Shown: piece after piece, positions 16,485 to 33,651 of the stretch | How positions within the stretch are numbered: position 1 is the first letter of the stretch | How the letters are laid out: each line of letters starts with the position of its first letter | Source of the DNA: Armatimonadota bacterium | Lineage (GTDB): Bacteria > Armatimonadota > Fimbriimonadia > Fimbriimonadales > GBS-DC | Reading direction: 5' to 3' | Length of the DNA: 33,651 bases | NCBI GenBank assembly: GCA_013359125.1 | Contig: JABWCR010000028.1 | Span: 1 to 33,651 of the forward strand | Made by a program: the position numbers and the translations under genes | The notes under the pieces: generated by a model | What the model saw: the letters and a program-made list of their open reading frames with translations, nothing else | The model's database searches: none | What the model was told of the DNA's origin: nothing

Positions 16485-16559
16485 TGGTGGGCGGTACATG
16501 AATTGAACATGTGACCCCCTCGACGTCAACGAGGTGCTCTACCGCTGAGCTAACCGCCC
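16485..16559 (-). tRNA. tRNA-Val (anticodon GAC)
   Basis: The minus strand folds into a complete cloverleaf. Acceptor GGGCGGT pairs with ACCGCCC, the D arm is GCTC/GAGC, anticodon stem CCTCG/CGAGG holds loop TTGACGT with anticodon GAC, and T arm ACATG/CATGT holds loop TTCAATT. Discriminator A is followed by an encoded CCA (16487-16485). GAC reads the GUC/GUU valine codons. Confidence 0.95.
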
Positions 16560-16648: not shown

Positions 16649-19600
16649 ATGAGCGTCAAGACGAGCGCCAAGGGGGTTGGGGTTCTATTGGGCGGCGTGG
16701 CGGGCGCCGCCGCAATGGGGCCGCTCGGCGCCTATTTTGGGGCCTCCTTGGGCACGGCCGCCGCCGGCGTTCTGAGCGCCGAAGCGGTTGCGGCCATCAG
16801 CGACGGAATTGCTGCGATCGGCGTCGAGATGATCGGCAGAGCGCTGGGCGACTTCAAAAACAACCGCCAAGAGAAAGAGCGTCTGAAGCTCAATCACGAC
16901 GTTGCCCGGGCGGTTACTCAGGCCTTGGCCAATGCGATGCATAACGAGGCCAAAGACGACCTGACCCGATTCTGGGCAAAAGGGCTGGAGTACGCGGCTA
17001 AGAATACGGAGGCGCACCAGAACCTCTACAAAACCGCGCACGAACCGAACTGGGAGCAAGAGACCCTTAAGAATCTGAGCGATTCAGAGAAGTTGGACGA
17101 TCTGGTGTGGAAGGATGTATGCAACTTCCTCCTGCGCCTTCCCGAGTGGCCCGGCGATTGTTGCCGTCCGTGGTATGCGCTCGGCTTTAACCGACGTGCC
17201 TTGAAAGTCAATCAAGTATCGGAACCAGACCGCACCCAACGATTAGTAGGCCTCCGCGACAAGGTTCTGCCCAAAATGGTCAAGGCCTATGCCGATGCGA
17301 TAGCGAAAGATCCCATTGCCCGTGATAAATCTTTCCACTACATGCTTCAGGTCATCGCCCAAGCACAAAAGGTCGACAGCGCAAAGCTCGACCAAATCCT
17401 AGGGCAGCTAAAAGACCTGAAGCCCGCCGACCATTCCAGCCTCCTCTTGGGTCAAGCAAGCGATGAAGTCCGCAAGATATTCTCGGATCTTGAGGCTGCC
17501 ATTCGCGATGAAGGCAAGAAGACGCGAGAACATGTAACCAAGACGACCAAAGAGATCAAGAAGGACACAGAAGCCATCAAAGCAGGCGTCGCCGCTGTCC
17601 ATGCCGATGTCAAGAAGCTCCAAGGCGCCCACGCCCTCATCCCGTCCAACCTCCCCAAAGACCCCGTAACCGCAGAGATTGAACGGCCGGAACTGATGAA
17701 GGAGATCGGCACGAAGCTCCAGAATGGCCCCGCCGTGCGGATGGGCGGCAGGGCCACCCTCCAGGGCCACGGCGGGCAGGGCAAGACGACCCTCGCCTAC
17801 GCCTACGGTCGTGCGAACTTCGACAACTACCCCGGCGGCGTCTATGTCGTCAACTGCGCGGGCGCCCAGATCGTCGAGCCGTTTGTAGCCTTGCGATTAC
17901 AAAACGAGAAGGTAGGCGAACCGCCGCCCGAGCATCCCGAACAGATCGTGAGCGCGCTGCTATCCGATCCAAACAAGAAGGCACTCGTCATCTTCGACAA
18001 CGTCGACTCCAAAGAGCAGTGGGACGAGTTCGTCCCCCTCTTGCCCAATTGCGACATCATCGTGACCACCCAGGACGAGAATATCGATCCCCAAGGCGCG
18101 ATCAAAGTAGAGCATTTCAGCTTCGAGCAGGCGCGAAAACTTCTGGGCAACTACCGAGAGTCTGCGCTGAAGGCTGAAAACGAACAAAACATAAAGAGCA
18201 TACACAGGGATACGGAAGGCCTCGCCGCCCTCATCGCAGCGATCGGCATGGCCATGAGTCTTGACAAATCAGACGGCTGGTCTAACTATGCCAATTGGCT
18301 GGCCAATGTCGATATCGGCCAATATCCCAAATTGAAGCACTATCCGCATACGACCGCGGCTATTCTGGACGGCCTGCGATCCAAACTCACACAACCTCAG
18401 CAACGAGTCCTGGAGTATGCCTCGCTGCTCCCGCCAGAGGCCCTTCGAGAGTGGTGGCTGAAATGGCTGCTTCAGCATGACGGCGTCGATCTGGGCACGG
18501 ACAGCCGCGGCGAGCCGCGAGAGCCTTCGTGGCACTTGGAAGGCCTAAAGGACCTCGGACTGTTGAGGCCGATGGACGAAGCGGGCGAGACTTGGTCCAT
18601 CAACCGCTTGCACCTGAAGAGGGCGCAGGAAGCGTTGTCGGCGACGATGACCGTAACAGATCCGATGGCATCGAAGTTGGTCGAACTTGCACGCACGGCG
18701 TTTGAGCGTGCGCGGGTCTCCCAAGAAGAGCTGCGCTATTCGCACGCAATCGACTTTTATACGCAGTGCATCCTCATCATGGAGTCGCAGCGCGAGGCGC
18801 TAGGCAAGTTGTGGCCAGCCGAGTTCCAGAACAACCTGGCCGGGGCCTACGCAAACCGCGGCAGCGCCAAACAGGACCTGCAACAGTTCGGCGCCGCCAT
18901 CGCGGATTACGGCGAGGCGATCGAGATCAGGGAGGCGCTGCGCGAGGCCTTTGAGGAGTCGGGCCAGCCGTGGCCGGCCGAGTTCCAGAACGACCTGGCC
19001 AAGGCCTACCTAAACCGCGGCAACGTAAAACAAGACCTGCAACAGTTCGACGCCGCCATCGCGGACTACGGCGAGGCGATCAAACTGATGAAGGCGCTGC
19101 GCGAGGCCTTTGAGAAGTCGGGCGAGCAGTGGCCCGCCCAGTTCCAGAACGACCTGGCCGGGGCCTACATGAACCGCGGCAACGCCAAAAAGGGCCTGCA
19201 ACAGTTCGGCGCCGCCATCGCAGACTACGGCGAGGCGATCGAGATCAGGGAGGCGCTGCGAAAGGCCTTTGAGGAGTCGGGCCAGCCGTGGCCGGCCGAG
19301 TTCCAGAACGACCTGGCCAAGGCCTACATGAACCGCGGCAACGCAAAACAGGGCCTGCAACAGTTCGGCGCCGCCGTCGCGGACTACGGCAAGGCGATCG
19401 AGATCATGGAGACGCTGCGCGAGGCCTTTGAGGAGTCGGGCCAGCCGTGGCCGGCCGAGTTCCAGAACGACCTGGCCGCGGCCTACCTAAACCGCGGCGT
19501 CGCCCGGAACGGCCTGCAACAGTTCGGCGCCGCCGTCGCGGACTGCGGCGAGGCGATCGAACTGATGAAGGCGCTGCGCAAGGCCTTTGAGGAGTCGCGC

Positions 19601-20200
19601 CAGCCGTGGCCGGCTGCGTTCCAGAACGACCTGGCCAGGGCCTACATGAACCGCGGCAACGCAAAACAGGGCCTGCAACAGTTCGACGCTGCCATCGAGG
19701 ACTGCGGCGAGGCGATCAAACTGATGAAGGCGCTGCGCAAGGCCTTTGAGGAGTCGCGCCAGCCGTGGCCGGCTGCGTTCCAGAACGACCTGGCCAGGGC
19801 CTACCTAAACCGCGGCAACGCCCAGCAGGGCCTGCAACAGTTCGGCGCCGCCATCGCGGACTACGACAAGGCGATCCAGATCAGGGTGGCGCTGAGAAAG
19901 GCGCTGGGCGACCAATGGCCGGCCCAGTTCCAGAACGACCTGGCCAAGGCCTACATGAACCGCGGCAACGCCCAACAGGGCCTGCAACAGTTCGGCGCCG
20001 CCGTCGAGGACTACGACAAGGCGATCGAAATAGCCAGAAACTTACGCGCCCTGCTCGAGCCGCGCGGTCATTGGGCGCCAGAACTCCGATACCTCTACGC
20101 CTTGATCCTAGGTAATCGGGCGATTGCTTATGATGAAGTCGGCCAGCACTATCTCGCCATAGCCGACCGAGAAGAAGCCGAGTCCGTCTGGCCTGCCTGA
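16649..20200 (+). CDS. STAND NTPase: glycine-zipper N-terminus, coiled linker, NB-ARC domain, tandem TPR-like repeats
   Basis: 1183 residues. Residues 9-65 are hydrophobic with two glycine zippers (G11-G15-G19 and G27-G31-G35), suggesting membrane insertion or oligomerisation. Residues about 270-322 form a charged helical coil. The NB-ARC core has Walker A GHGGQGKTT (373-381, Lys379), Walker B LVIFDNVD (446-453), a sensor-like IIVTTQ and a GL-rich segment, then a winged-helix-like region to about 680. From about residue 733 to the end lie eight TPR-like repeats of 53 (two of 50) residues that are nearly identical in DNA. The layout effector-like N-terminus / NTPase switch / repeat sensor is that of STAND proteins, known in anti-phage (Avs-type) and signalling systems. 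A defence role here is inference. It is a single gene, followed directly by REP-like hairpins. Confidence 0.88.
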   Translation: MSVKTSAKGVGVLLGGVAGAAAMGPLGAYFGASLGTAAAGVLSAEAVAAISDGIAAIGVEMIGRALGDFKNNRQEKERLKLNHDVARAVTQALANAMHNEAKDDLTRFWAKGLEYAAKNTEAHQNLYKTAHEPNWEQETLKNLSDSEKLDDLVWKDVCNFLLRLPEWPGDCCRPWYALGFNRRALKVNQVSEPDRTQRLVGLRDKVLPKMVKAYADAIAKDPIARDKSFHYMLQVIAQAQKVDSAKLDQILGQLKDLKPADHSSLLLGQASDEVRKIFSDLEAAIRDEGKKTREHVTKTTKEIKKDTEAIKAGVAAVHADVKKLQGAHALIPSNLPKDPVTAEIERPELMKEIGTKLQNGPAVRMGGRATLQGHGGQGKTTLAYAYGRANFDNYPGGVYVVNCAGAQIVEPFVALRLQNEKVGEPPPEHPEQIVSALLSDPNKKALVIFDNVDSKEQWDEFVPLLPNCDIIVTTQDENIDPQGAIKVEHFSFEQARKLLGNYRESALKAENEQNIKSIHRDTEGLAALIAAIGMAMSLDKSDGWSNYANWLANVDIGQYPKLKHYPHTTAAILDGLRSKLTQPQQRVLEYASLLPPEALREWWLKWLLQHDGVDLGTDSRGEPREPSWHLEGLKDLGLLRPMDEAGETWSINRLHLKRAQEALSATMTVTDPMASKLVELARTAFERARVSQEELRYSHAIDFYTQCILIMESQREALGKLWPAEFQNNLAGAYANRGSAKQDLQQFGAAIADYGEAIEIREALREAFEESGQPWPAEFQNDLAKAYLNRGNVKQDLQQFDAAIADYGEAIKLMKALREAFEKSGEQWPAQFQNDLAGAYMNRGNAKKGLQQFGAAIADYGEAIEIREALRKAFEESGQPWPAEFQNDLAKAYMNRGNAKQGLQQFGAAVADYGKAIEIMETLREAFEESGQPWPAEFQNDLAAAYLNRGVARNGLQQFGAAVADCGEAIELMKALRKAFEESRQPWPAAFQNDLARAYMNRGNAKQGLQQFDAAIEDCGEAIKLMKALRKAFEESRQPWPAAFQNDLARAYLNRGNAQQGLQQFGAAIADYDKAIQIRVALRKALGDQWPAQFQNDLAKAYMNRGNAQQGLQQFGAAVEDYDKAIEIARNLRALLEPRGHWAPELRYLYALILGNRAIAYDEVGQHYLAIADREEAESVWPA
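18845..20098 (+). repeat. 159-bp near-identical tandem repeats encoding the TPR-like sensor
   Basis: Eight in-frame units begin at 18845, 19004, 19163, 19322, 19481, 19640, 19799 and 19949. The first six are spaced exactly 159 bases (53 residues) and the last two are 150 bases. Each opens with AY-[LM]-NRGN and contains GLQQFGAAIADY and FQNDLA. Units 6 and 7 are the most alike. Units are conserved at silent positions as well, pointing to recent duplication or gene conversion. Confidence 0.92.
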
Positions 20201-27311: not shown

Positions 27312-28457
27312 ATGGACCAGACAGGGCGAACGCCCAAGCCGGTATTCGTCAACGTTTGGCTAGTCGTCATCTGTGCTATCGTCTGGGCGGTCGTGCGCTA
27401 TAGCCAAGGCCGCCTAGAGATCGCGCCCGAACTTCTGGTCGCTTTGGTGCTCTTCGCAATCGCATCGGCATCGCTTCGCACCTATGTCGCGGTCAGCGAT
27501 CCCTCCAAGGTCTTCACCTTTACCCATTGGCTGCTGGTTTTCGACATCTTGGTCATCTCCGTAGGCGTCGCGGCCACGGGAGGCGTGCACAGCGAGGCCT
27601 GGATTCTCTATTTTGCCCTGCTGTGTACCGAGGCCGCCGTTATGCCGCCCAAATGGGTCGTGCCCGCCATACTCAGTTGCGCCGCAGGCTACTCGATAGC
27701 CTGTTGGGGCGATTGGGGCATCGCCTGGATCGACATTCTCTTCCGTATCTCGATGGTCGTAACCGTTACGCTCTTTATCAACATGGTGCGTGTGATGCAT
27801 CTTGAGCGACAAGAGGAAATCGCCGAACTGCGCGAGAAGCTCCACCTTGTGGAAGAGCGCGAACGGATCGCCTCGGACTTTCACGACGGCCTCGGCCATT
27901 CACTGGTCAAATCTGTTCTCGGTCTAGAAGTAGCCAAAGCGATCTGCGAATCCGAGCCGACCGAGGCTAAACGACTGGTGGAAGAACAAACGAGCGAACT
28001 GCGATCGGCAATGGCCGAGATGCGAGACGTCATCCATCAGCTCCACCACGATTCCAACGTCTCTTGGCAAAACCGAATACGACTGTTGGCGCGCCAAACA
28101 CAAGAGAGGATCAGAGCCGAGATCACGGTCGATCTTCCCGATATTCGCCTGCACCCGCAGTTGGAAGAAACGGCTGTACGAATAGCTCAAGAGGCGCTGA
28201 CCAATATCATGAAGCACTCGGCTTCCGCTACGCGCGTGGCGATTGCCGCGAAAGCAGACGGCGGTCGGTTCGCATTGACTATCACCGACGACGGACCGGG
28301 ATTTGATACCGCCAACCAAGGCAACGGCTTGACCAATATGAGCAGACGCGCAACCGATTCGGGCGGACGCCTCGAAATCGCCTCTGCCCCGGGTCAAGGC
28401 ACAGCTATCGAACTAACAGCGCCCATGGAGAGAGAATGGACAAAGTCCGCATCATAA
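27312..28457 (+). CDS. NarL/DesK-type membrane sensor histidine kinase
   Basis: 381 residues. Five or six N-terminal transmembrane helices (within 12-160) with no large periplasmic domain are followed by a HisKA_3 dimerisation helix with phospho-acceptor His191 in DFHDGLGHSL. The HATPase domain has N-box EALTNIMKHS, G1 DDGPGFD and a G-N-G-L-T-N-M segment. It autophosphorylates and passes phosphate to the response regulator encoded next, whose start lies inside its last codons (22-base overlap). The signal may be in or near the membrane. The preceding HMA protein raises the possibility of a metal cue. Confidence 0.93.
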   Translation: MDQTGRTPKPVFVNVWLVVICAIVWAVVRYSQGRLEIAPELLVALVLFAIASASLRTYVAVSDPSKVFTFTHWLLVFDILVISVGVAATGGVHSEAWILYFALLCTEAAVMPPKWVVPAILSCAAGYSIACWGDWGIAWIDILFRISMVVTVTLFINMVRVMHLERQEEIAELREKLHLVEERERIASDFHDGLGHSLVKSVLGLEVAKAICESEPTEAKRLVEEQTSELRSAMAEMRDVIHQLHHDSNVSWQNRIRLLARQTQERIRAEITVDLPDIRLHPQLEETAVRIAQEALTNIMKHSASATRVAIAAKADGGRFALTITDDGPGFDTANQGNGLTNMSRRATDSGGRLEIASAPGQGTAIELTAPMEREWTKSAS

Positions 28458-29089
28458 TCGCCGACGACGACCCGAACCTTCGAGGGTTGCTGCGTAAACT
28501 GCTATCGGCATCGCCAGACATCGAAATCGTTGGCATAGCCTCCGATGGAGACGAAGCCGTGGAACTGTGCGAGCGCGAAGCGCCCGATGTCGCGCTGATG
28601 GACATCGGCATGCCCAGGATGACCGGCATCGAAGCGACTCGCCGCATCAGGCGCGCTTTACCTACCCAAGTCGTCATATGGACTATCTACGGCGACGACC
28701 AAAACGTCTTCGAGGCGATCAAAGCGGGCGCGCTCGGCTACCTGCTCAAAGACAGCGCCGGCGAGCAGCTCATCAACGGCGTGCTGTCTGCCGCAAGGGG
28801 CGAATCGCCTCTCCATCCCGCAATCGCTGTGCGCGTGCTCGACGAGTTTCAACGCATAGCCAGCCTCCAAAAGGCCAAGTACGACCTGATGAGCGACCTG
28901 ACCGTGCGCGAAACCGAAATCCTAAAGCTCGTCGCCACCGGCAAACGCAACAAAGAGATCGCCGATCAGCTCTTCTTGACCGAAAAAACGGTCAAGAACC
29001 ACATCACCAACATCCTATTTAAGCTTCAGGTCAACTCGCGCACAGAGGCCGCCATCAAAGCCATTCAAGAGGGCCTTGTCAAGCCTTAG
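28436..29089 (+). CDS. NarL/FixJ-family response regulator
   Basis: 217 residues. The receiver domain has the acidic pocket D10-D11-D12, phospho-acceptor Asp56 in VALMDIGMP and Lys in YLLKDS. A C-terminal LuxR-type helix-turn-helix follows (LTVRETEILKLVATGKRNKEIADQLFLTEKTVKNHI). It is the cognate partner of the kinase, whose gene overlaps its start by 22 bases. It acts as a DNA-binding transcription factor. Targets cannot be named. Its 3' end overlaps the convergent HhH gene by 11 bases. Confidence 0.95.
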   Translation: MDKVRIIIADDDPNLRGLLRKLLSASPDIEIVGIASDGDEAVELCEREAPDVALMDIGMPRMTGIEATRRIRRALPTQVVIWTIYGDDQNVFEAIKAGALGYLLKDSAGEQLINGVLSAARGESPLHPAIAVRVLDEFQRIASLQKAKYDLMSDLTVRETEILKLVATGKRNKEIADQLFLTEKTVKNHITNILFKLQVNSRTEAAIKAIQEGLVKP

Positions 29090-30990: not shown

Positions 30991-31186
30991 TCTCCGTACT
31001 CTTTGCAGGCTTGACCCTCCGCGAACGGCATTCTGAAAAAATGTAGGACAACTTTGAGTACGAATCGAACCCTGAACAGGCAAACGGCAACCTGTGCAGG
31101 CAACGGATAGGCCGCCGAGACGGCGGCGGTACTTTAAGGGCGGTACTTTGACGGAAGGGGGCATGCTCTCGCCCTCCCGGTCTTTC

Positions 31187-31249: not shown

Positions 31250-33651
31250 ATGTTAGAGATACTGATAGATTCAACCGGCATTGCAAGATTGACTCTCGGC
31301 GCCATCGCCGAGAAAATCAGCAACGGGCACAACTACCACCTTGAGTATGTAGTCGAGGACGCCTTCCGAGCCGCATTAGACGGATTGGTAAACGACACCC
31401 GGGGAATGCTCAAAGCCGACTACGAGGCCGTCCGCAAGAGACTCCTGCCCCGCCTAAAGCCCGGTCCTCAATTCCCAACGCAAATTTCAGCGCCGCTTCT
31501 GACCAAGGACGTAGCCGCATTGCGACAAGCGATCGGGGAGATGATCCAAGGCGCCATTCCCGAAGAGAATCACGATTCCCGCACACGCATCCGGCGCGAT
31601 CTGCCCAACGCCTTCCTCTATGCGTTCTCGGAGCGCCTCAAACACAAGAAACACGCCAAAGGTTGGATCGCCTTCCAGCGAGAGTGTCTATGGGCGATCG
31701 CACAAAAACTCGACAACCTCCCGCCGACAAACCTCCTTGGGAACGCCTACGATGGCTTGGTCGAACAGATCGATCAGAAGATCAAAAACGCCCTTGATGC
31801 CCAACAGAAAACAATTGAAGCAGCGCTTAACAGAGCCCTTGCCAACCAGTATCGGCCGCAAGTCTATGATCCCCTGTTGGATGGCGCGATCGATGGGAAC
31901 GAGATTGATCGCTATCGCCAGGCTTTCTCGTACAAGTCGCGATTGACCGAGTACATCTGGCCGACCGAAGCGGCTGCCGCCGTGCACGACTTTCTGCATG
32001 ATGAACGTCGGTTTACTTGGTCGCTCTTCTTGGAAAAGGCTGGCGCCGGCAAGAGCCGATTCGGGCTGGAATGGGTCGAGAGGCTGAAAGCGAACGGACG
32101 ATGGGACGCCTTTTTCTTTGACGTCGGTCGAAACGAGAATTACGATCATTGGCGCGATTGGCAACCAGAGGCCGATACTTTGATAATCTTCGACTACGCC
32201 TATCAGGGACGAGAAGCGATCAAGAAGGCCATCCACGCGCTCCATCAACGGCAGAATGAACTTGAGCACAAGATCCGCTTCTTGCTTTTGGAAAGAGAGG
32301 CGATGGGGCGGTTCCTTTCGCAAGAACTGACTTCGACTGCCCGGTTTCGCGGCAGCCAGAAGTTCGATGACGTCAATCCCTTGCAGGCGTTGGCGGGCGG
32401 GCGCGGCTCCACTGAATCAGGCCAAGATTATTTCGAGATCGACCAGTTAACGCCTGACGCCCGCGCGCGAGCGCTGAAAGAGACCTATGGGCGATTCGTC
32501 GAGCCGAATAAGGCAAAAGATCGAGATTTTGATGCCTCGATCGCAGAACTGGACGCACAGGAGTTGAAGACGCCTCTATGGGCGATGCTGGCGGGCTTTG
32601 CACTGGCTTATGCGGACAACTCTGGAAGCGGACAGCCGAAACTGAACAAGCAGGAATTGCTTCAGGCTATCTTTGATCGCGAGACTCAGATGTTAGTCAA
32701 CTTGGCAGATCAAGAGGCCGGACGGAAGGTGGCCCATGCGGTCGCCGTGGCCAGCGCGTGCGGGCAATATAGTCGGCAAGCAGGGATCGACGCCGAGACT
32801 GAGTTGAACACAGCGTTCTTACAGGGCTATAGCCTGTTTGCCAATTATGATGGCAATAAAATGGCGATGAAACCGGCGCTGCCCGACCTGATCGCCGAGG
32901 CGTTTGTGCTGTTTGCATTGGATCAAAAAATCCTTCCGTCGTGTCAACCGCAACTGCGAGAAGAAGTCGGGTCTGCGATCCGCGACTGCGATTTGGAACA
33001 TCGCTGGAGTTTTGCAGCGCGTGCAGTGCAGAACTATCCCGAACTTTATCAAAAGGTTTTAAAGCCGCTATTGCCAGAGGGCAGCGAAGGCGAGTGGCTC
33101 GTCGAAGCGTTGGGGGCTATGGAGCAACCCCTGAGCGATAAAGAGTTGGAAGCGATAACCAACCGGGCGATAGCGCAGGGCAGGACGAGCGGGCCGTGGA
33201 CGGGTTATCTGGGGGTTCAAGCGGCGAGCGGTGATCCGAGGGCGTTGGTGGAAGGGCAAAGGCTGTGGCAGGCGTTGACGCAGAACGAAAAGGGCGGGCA
33301 CACGAGACCGTATGCTGGGCTGATAGTCAACAGTCTCGCGCGAGTTCCCTTGACGGTCGATGAGCGGCTCTCTGTTACAAACGATCTGAAGGCGCTCTGG
33401 GAGGCGTCGCAAGAGCCGGAGATCCGGCTGATATACGCCCAAGGCCTGTTCAATGCGATTAAGCCCGACATGACGGTCGAGCAGCGGCTCTCTGTTACAA
33501 ACGATCTGAAGGCGCTTTGGGAGGCGTCGCAAGAGCCCGAGATCCGGCTGGCATACGCCAAAGGCCTGTTCAACGCGATCCAGCCCGACATGACGGTCGA
33601 GCAGCGGCTCTCTGTTACAAACGATCTGAAGGCGCTCTGGGAGGCGTCGCA
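31250..33651 (+). CDS. Second STAND-like NTPase with tandem-repeat C-terminus (partial, runs off the window)
   Basis: Open from the ATG at 31250 to the window edge, 800 codons with no stop; the 3' end is missing. Residues 1-230 are mostly helical and unrecognised, ending in a coil (QIDQKIKNALDAQQKTIEAAL). The P-loop is at 264-269 (A-GAGKS, Lys268), though the usual first Gly is Glu, followed by RFGLEWVERL. Walker B is LIIFDYAYQG (Asp315), and RFLLLEREA follows, a combination typical of bacterial STAND/AP-ATPase-like proteins. The C-terminal part is a helical solenoid that ends in 40-residue repeats (TVEQRLSVTNDLKALWEASQ...). The layout parallels the STAND protein at 16649, but the sequences are unrelated outside the motifs. 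A sensor role in defence or signalling is inference. Confidence 0.85.
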   Translation, partial: MLEILIDSTGIARLTLGAIAEKISNGHNYHLEYVVEDAFRAALDGLVNDTRGMLKADYEAVRKRLLPRLKPGPQFPTQISAPLLTKDVAALRQAIGEMIQGAIPEENHDSRTRIRRDLPNAFLYAFSERLKHKKHAKGWIAFQRECLWAIAQKLDNLPPTNLLGNAYDGLVEQIDQKIKNALDAQQKTIEAALNRALANQYRPQVYDPLLDGAIDGNEIDRYRQAFSYKSRLTEYIWPTEAAAAVHDFLHDERRFTWSLFLEKAGAGKSRFGLEWVERLKANGRWDAFFFDVGRNENYDHWRDWQPEADTLIIFDYAYQGREAIKKAIHALHQRQNELEHKIRFLLLEREAMGRFLSQELTSTARFRGSQKFDDVNPLQALAGGRGSTESGQDYFEIDQLTPDARARALKETYGRFVEPNKAKDRDFDASIAELDAQELKTPLWAMLAGFALAYADNSGSGQPKLNKQELLQAIFDRETQMLVNLADQEAGRKVAHAVAVASACGQYSRQAGIDAETELNTAFLQGYSLFANYDGNKMAMKPALPDLIAEAFVLFALDQKILPSCQPQLREEVGSAIRDCDLEHRWSFAARAVQNYPELYQKVLKPLLPEGSEGEWLVEALGAMEQPLSDKELEAITNRAIAQGRTSGPWTGYLGVQAASGDPRALVEGQRLWQALTQNEKGGHTRPYAGLIVNSLARVPLTVDERLSVTNDLKALWEASQEPEIRLIYAQGLFNAIKPDMTVEQRLSVTNDLKALWEASQEPEIRLAYAKGLFNAIQPDMTVEQRLSVTNDLKALWEAS
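33353..33651 (+). repeat. 120-bp near-perfect tandem repeats in second STAND gene
   Basis: Units start at 33353, 33473 and 33593 (the last cut by the window edge), each exactly 120 bases or 40 residues. By eye units 1 and 2 differ at about 10 of 120 bases, and the visible 59 bases of unit 3 differ from unit 2 at one base. More units may follow outside the window. Confidence 0.93.

Follow-up and report, generated by a model that had tools for sequence, protein, structure and literature searches.

A candidate NLR-like STAND receptor with near-identical, position-specifically variable sensor repeats in an Armatimonadota bacterium

Several well-described STAND proteins provide the background against which the gene analysed here can be read. 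In Avs proteins the C-terminal repeats bind phage proteins and the N-terminal effectors fire (PMC12931631, PMC10907252). PH0952 and MalT, which combine a NOD with a TPR-type sensor, pass through a STAND cycle in which an inducer releases a closed ADP form and an ATP-bound multimer results (PMC6468293). The fungal NLRs het-d/het-e and the TPR and ANK NLRs of Podospora carry near-identical sensor repeats of ~42 aa, show codon-specific diversification on one face and suffer breakage in short-read assemblies (PMC4986451, PMC12222747); the selected TPR sites of fungal NLRs map to the concave side (PMC4986451), and WD40 repeats of high internal conservation have been noted in bacteria (PMC12222747).

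The window, that is, the whole 33,651-nucleotide stretch of DNA analysed, is one entire contig (C28) of an Armatimonadota genome of 2.82 Mb in 47 contigs, and the gene in question occupies its downstream end (31250..33651, + strand). Its product resembles Avs5 (SIR2-STAND-TPR) in tripartite layout, in predicted fold (9jap, Z 12.7) and in the SIR2 effector found in five scanned relatives, but the nSTAND3 domain of Avs5 (PF20720) is matched by only 2 of 42 proteins here, the N-terminal domain differs, and no Avs model in PADLOC matches the window protein. With the fungal NLRs it shares the repeat design, whereas its NTPase subfamily and effector are different and the protein is bacterial. PH0952 and MalT are the source of the autoinhibition model used below (PMC6468293), yet we did not find near-identical repeats described for them in the literature consulted, and no DNA-binding output of the MalT type was found in the window protein. 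Proteins of the SAMD9 family are the top Foldseek matches and likewise place TPRs after a STAND NTPase, but their P-loop is of the GGT/S type and they contain AlbA_2 and Sir2-like domains as well as an OB fold, the Sir2-like domain preceding and the OB fold following the NTPase (PMC5445408), whereas the window protein has a GKS P-loop and a helical N-terminus, and none of these three domains was found in it. Most notable is an apparently TPR-like sensor of probably high internal conservation, with position-specific diversification, on a predicted STAND receptor.

An interrupted gene with a STAND-type core

The first-pass annotation reported an unclosed frame of 800 codons, and the frame is indeed free of stops from 31250 to the window edge (31250..33649, +); an in-frame stop lies four codons 5' of 31250, so this ATG is the first start. 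The edge falls inside a 120-nt near-identical tandem repeat with copies at 33351, 33471 and 33591. When the other contigs of the genome were searched, the sole resemblance to this protein was at the end of contig C7. C28 and C7 share a single exact overlap of 93 nt that preserves the frame, and the terminal frame on C7, KGLFNAIQPDMTVEQRLSV..., runs on to a normal stop. The downstream sequence called for by the annotation is thus at hand, and it does not bear out the degenerate remnant that the annotation had considered just outside the window. We infer from this overlap that the two contigs are adjacent; the exact in-frame junction then gives a gene of at least 878 aa (2402+328-93 = 2637 nt), a lower bound to which every repeat possibly collapsed by the assembler would add 40 aa. 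The frame is unclosed in the window because the assembly breaks within near-identical sensor repeats, and such repeats also break assemblies of fungal NLR genes (PMC12222747). A chance frame is excluded, since the invariant motifs are common to relatives in ~10 phyla.

The contigs of six relatives (L023, L025, L030, L035, L048 and L053) likewise stop in or beside near-identical repeats. By hand count, broken assemblies affect 6 of 13 members with near-identical repeats versus 8 of 27 others, with no clear enrichment.

The NOD core (residues ~216-600, 31895..33049), delimited by alignment, AF2 model and structural neighbours, consists of a STAND NTPase followed by a helical/winged-helix part; all positions given here lie on the + strand. 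Both Walker motifs are present and, across 34 aligned sequences, their key residues are invariant: G265, G267, K268 and S269 of Walker A (AGAGKS, residues 264-269, 32039..32056) together with R270 directly after it, and D315 and Y316 of Walker B (LIIFDYA, residues 311-317, 32180..32200). In the sensor-1-like RFLLLER (residues 343-349, 32276..32296) R349 is invariant and R343 at least 90% conserved. The same level of at least 90% is reached by P442-L443 (32573..32578), the presumed counterpart of the STAND GxP / GLPLAL element, and by P545-D546 (32882..32887) of the family motif LEPDxLGExFVL, so that the invariant or nearly invariant columns comprise the P-loop, the Walker B D-Y, the two arginines of R.LLLER, the PL pair and the PD...E motif. 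Judged by position, R343/R349 and P442/L443 are probably equivalent to RNBS-B and GLPLAL.

The AF2 model has a pLDDT of ~90 in the core (residues 230-350 and 400-510) and above 90 in the repeats from residue 730, and is poorer at the N-terminus. It shows a long helix before the P-loop, the STAND NOD fold with NBD, helical and winged-helix domains, and a helical solenoid after the NTPase. The best structural neighbour is NLRC4 (Z 15.5 over 344 residues, 4.8 Å, residues 193-700; Foldseek, VIA-align), and the same tools retrieve NLRP3, Apaf-1, the NB-ARC of NRC1, NOD2, MalT, EfAvs5 and PH0952. A swappable N-terminal output domain and a C-terminal helical-repeat sensor complete the layout. These data support the assignment of the window protein as a STAND-type ATPase with N-effector, NOD and helical sensor, and they agree with the annotation in its STAND-like call, its P-loop GAGKS, its Walker B with FDYA, its RFLLLERE (343-350), its coil before the P-loop and its solenoid after it.

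The gene escapes the available models. No match to the window protein, and hence no full-length match to a non-STAND family, was found in the Pfam, NCBIfam or PADLOC models, a PDB sequence search returned nothing credible, and NB-ARC (PF00931) gave no match even at E 10. nSTAND_NTPase5 (PF25199) weakly matches 21 of 42 relatives over the P-loop to Walker B region, with a best E-value of 5.8e-9, but the scores listed for them (19.7-28 bits) stay under the gathering cut-off of 34 bits, and for the window protein there was no match at all. The proteins are thus best described, by sequence, as a putative subfamily of STAND/NLR-like receptors near but below the nSTAND_NTPase5 cut-off.

A profile built from the window's NTPase core, order-level relatives and one plasmid protein identified 41 loci in named genomes from ~10 phyla, as judged by record title. 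Within its own phylum the distribution is patchy (NTPase matches in 18 of 291 genomes), and in the same 291-genome search the rest of its own family gave no match. Plasmids yielded one distant relative, with nine repeats; viral contigs and phage records yielded no family member, which has no bearing on defence either way.

Exchangeable N-termini

Residues 1-200 (31250..31849, +) occupy the effector or adaptor position and are predicted to form a helical bundle that leads into a long coil. The annotation held that the first ~230 residues match no family, which stands for the library models but not beyond them: the helical domain occurs on other STAND and TPR proteins. In related genomes, phmmer finds counterparts of residues 1-200 at the N-terminus of a TPR protein (1e-9) and of a NACHT-like protein (2e-7), and against Phycisphaerae family members the domain reaches an HHalign probability of 94% over 169 columns, with 0.2% for the reversed control. 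An N[HY]D[LI]-like motif lies at residues 28-31 of the window protein, and the form N[HYN][DH][LIV] is common to the N-terminal domains of the protein and its relatives. The best hit of a fold search with the domain (Z 7.9, part of an aminomutase/lyase) is at chance level for helical bundles. A pore-former reading was considered and set aside, as the matches to the Zorya tail and the SmhB pore cover the long coil only; a Gly-rich N-terminus hidden by an upstream frameshift was likewise discarded, no such segment being present in any upstream frame.

Among the relatives the NTPase is kept and the N-terminus is swapped. The effector position is filled by SIR2_2 (the five relatives mentioned above), SMEK_N, a DUF676 esterase, a CBASS SAVED-type PDDEXK nuclease (4e-88), a CBASS-type HNH (1.8e-18) or an LmuA-type nuclease (2.3e-9), and several relatives have helical or membrane-like N-terminal domains. 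Two examples are found in Micromonospora and Streptomyces (L045:137-2899(+) and L047:7362-9776(+)), where the NTPase is fused to nuclease domains of CBASS SAVED effectors; in these fusions STAND sensing apparently replaces cyclic-nucleotide sensing.

A sensor of near-identical repeats

The notable feature of the gene is its diversifying repeat sensor, for which the annotation had gone no further than a helical solenoid. Three 40-aa repeats are encoded on the + strand of the window: copy 1 (33351..33470); copy 2 (33471..33590), with 92% DNA identity to copy 1 and protein changes at positions -2, +1 and +8 of the aligned unit; and copy 3 (33591..33651), which is cut by the contig end and carries on in C7. 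A repeat array counts as highly conserved internally when its units agree at 85% or more of positions across 100 aa or more; the window repeats have 92-97% DNA identity, with only ~100 aa readable before the contig end. In many relatives the repeats number 2-17, measure 38-44 aa and are almost the same throughout one protein but differ from protein to protein; amino-acid identity is up to 0.75-0.95 in the best stretch of the array. The Pfam TPR models do not match the window repeats; several relatives match TPR_1, TPR_2 or TPR_12, and the repeats form helix pairs in the window AF2 model. No such TPR-like near-identical repeats were found described in the literature searched on bacterial STANDs.

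With an invariant A (position 0) and an invariant N (+5) as anchors for the alignment of the repeat units, the same five positions, -2, +1, +4, +8 and +9, are hypervariable in 17 proteins, and these five lie on one helix face of the repeat. A leave-one-out test, with columns defined from the other proteins, gives a combined p of ~2e-19, a value that takes the 17 proteins as independent and is computed on units that are related within each protein; the window's two complete units alone give p = 0.003. The pN/pS ratio is 1.51 at the five positions versus 0.53 elsewhere, an estimate biased upward because the positions were chosen by amino-acid variability. A mutational hot-spot behind the hypervariable sites was rejected, pS being about equal there and elsewhere (0.27 versus 0.24). 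Placing the invariant A at TPR position 8 would put +1 and +4 at TPR positions 9 and 12. TPR positions 9 and 12 face the ligand groove. The hypervariable repeats suggest a detector that can be retuned quickly, with phages as its likeliest target.

A second STAND gene of the window (16649-20200, +) has an NB-ARC domain (PF00931, 1.6e-9). It directly follows a tRNA-Val gene (16485-16559, -), and its product has a Gly-rich N-terminus, then NHDV, and eight near-identical 53-aa TPR repeats. The annotation called the two genes unrelated, which is borne out for the NTPase subfamily, where profiles of the two cores do not match (HHalign 5%), and is only partly right overall because both sensors share the design of near-identical TPR-like repeats; the repeats of the second gene vary at +1 and +4 (p 0.03), two of the five positions that are hypervariable in the 17 proteins. 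The N-terminal domains have the motif N[HY][DH][LV] in common and reach 31-60% in HHalign, partly over coil, and may be related. A search with an N-terminus of the 16649 type gave matches in only three further genomes of the class, and in none of the three did the NTPase of the window-edge gene reach E 1e-10, a sample too small to judge co-occurrence.

Genomic neighbourhood and likely function

With C28 and C7 joined as proposed, the full effector set of a type III-B CRISPR system (cmr1, cas10, cmr3, cmr4, cmr5, cmr6 and csx1) lies ~3.5 kb downstream of the gene on C7 (L021:586-6923 and L101:15405-16499, both -); no tandem direct-repeat array was seen in stretch L101. In between are a dockerin-like gene in the opposite orientation, a gene for an FAD-dependent protein and one for a small protein with PDC-S09 matches. 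The upstream genes are ordinary: a two-component pair (27312-29089, same strand), Cdd1, a glyoxalase and a cupin. A 25-nt element, GCCGCCGAGACGGCGGCGGTACTTT, is located 5' of the gene (31111..31135, +), with a second copy in the same orientation just past the gene's stop (C7:96385-96409(-)), and these two are the only exact copies that the genome holds; this direct repeat is possibly the trace of an insertion or an intergenic element. Also 5' of the gene, at 31037-31065, is the element AAAAATGTAG.ACAA...TGAG.ACGAAT, which recurs at ~81% identity in a 53-nt stretch 3' of the stop on C7.

We consider it likely, with a probability of roughly 0.7, that the gene encodes an NLR-like anti-phage STAND receptor with a fast-diversifying TPR-like sensor. 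By analogy with PH0952/MalT, NLRC4 and Avs, the NOD would rest closed around ADP, with the repeat domain keeping it in this state. Binding of a foreign ligand, for which a phage protein is the likeliest candidate, to the concave face of the TPR-like solenoid through the hypervariable residues of helix A would release autoinhibition and allow exchange of ADP for ATP and oligomerisation. The clustered N-terminal helical domains could then halt or kill the infected cell, via the membrane or via a recruited partner, and recombination between near-identical repeats would add, remove and shuffle units and so change specificity fast.

Three other readings have to be weighed against an anti-phage receptor. 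The repeat design finds its closest parallel in the allorecognition NLRs of fungi (PMC4986451, PMC12222747), and the same idea has been raised for bacterial STANDs (PMC10907252), so that the protein might recognise self and non-self, be it kin or mobile elements, in the manner of het-d/het-e. We regard this as unlikely: the defence effectors fused in relatives and the CRISPR neighbour favour the anti-phage role, and nothing points to cell fusion in this bacterial group. Slightly less probable again is a MalT-like STAND regulator of signalling or transcription whose ligand would be a metabolite or protein of the host rather than a phage component. MalT and PH0952 are indeed among the structural neighbours, and the two-component pair upstream is on the same strand, but no DNA-binding domain was found in the window protein, the effector position of the relatives holds nucleases, SIR2 and an esterase, and diversifying repeats would be unusual for a housekeeping ligand.

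We give the least credence to an N-terminally truncated or inactive receptor, that is, an adaptor, a decoy or a decaying gene that has lost its hydrophobic effector segment. Most relatives with the same N-terminal domain have such a segment before the NHDL motif (KD ~1.8-2.7), whereas the window protein peaks at 1.27, and the GCCGCCGAGACGGCGGCGGTACTTT repeat on both sides of the gene would fit this reading as well. On the other hand, the NTPase motifs are all intact, the frame is open with a normal stop, and the segment of the plasmid relative is weak too (KD 0.98), yet that protein has its nine repeats.

Beyond the single gene, we advance as a tentative view, at somewhat below even odds, that the relatives in ~10 phyla constitute a bacterial receptor family with a recombination-diversified array of near-identical 40-aa repeats, five hypervariable residues in each, which would be the counterpart of the high-internal-conservation sensors of fungal NLRs and would often be broken or missed in short-read genomes. 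Short-read assemblies can break at the repeats, so that counts of such receptors may be too low and the genes may look truncated at contig ends. If this view is correct, NLR-like receptors in many phyla evolve their sensors by repeat shuffling and selection at fixed surface positions, no diversity-generating retroelement would be needed for such diversification, and the five positions per repeat would offer a direct handle on the determinants of specificity.
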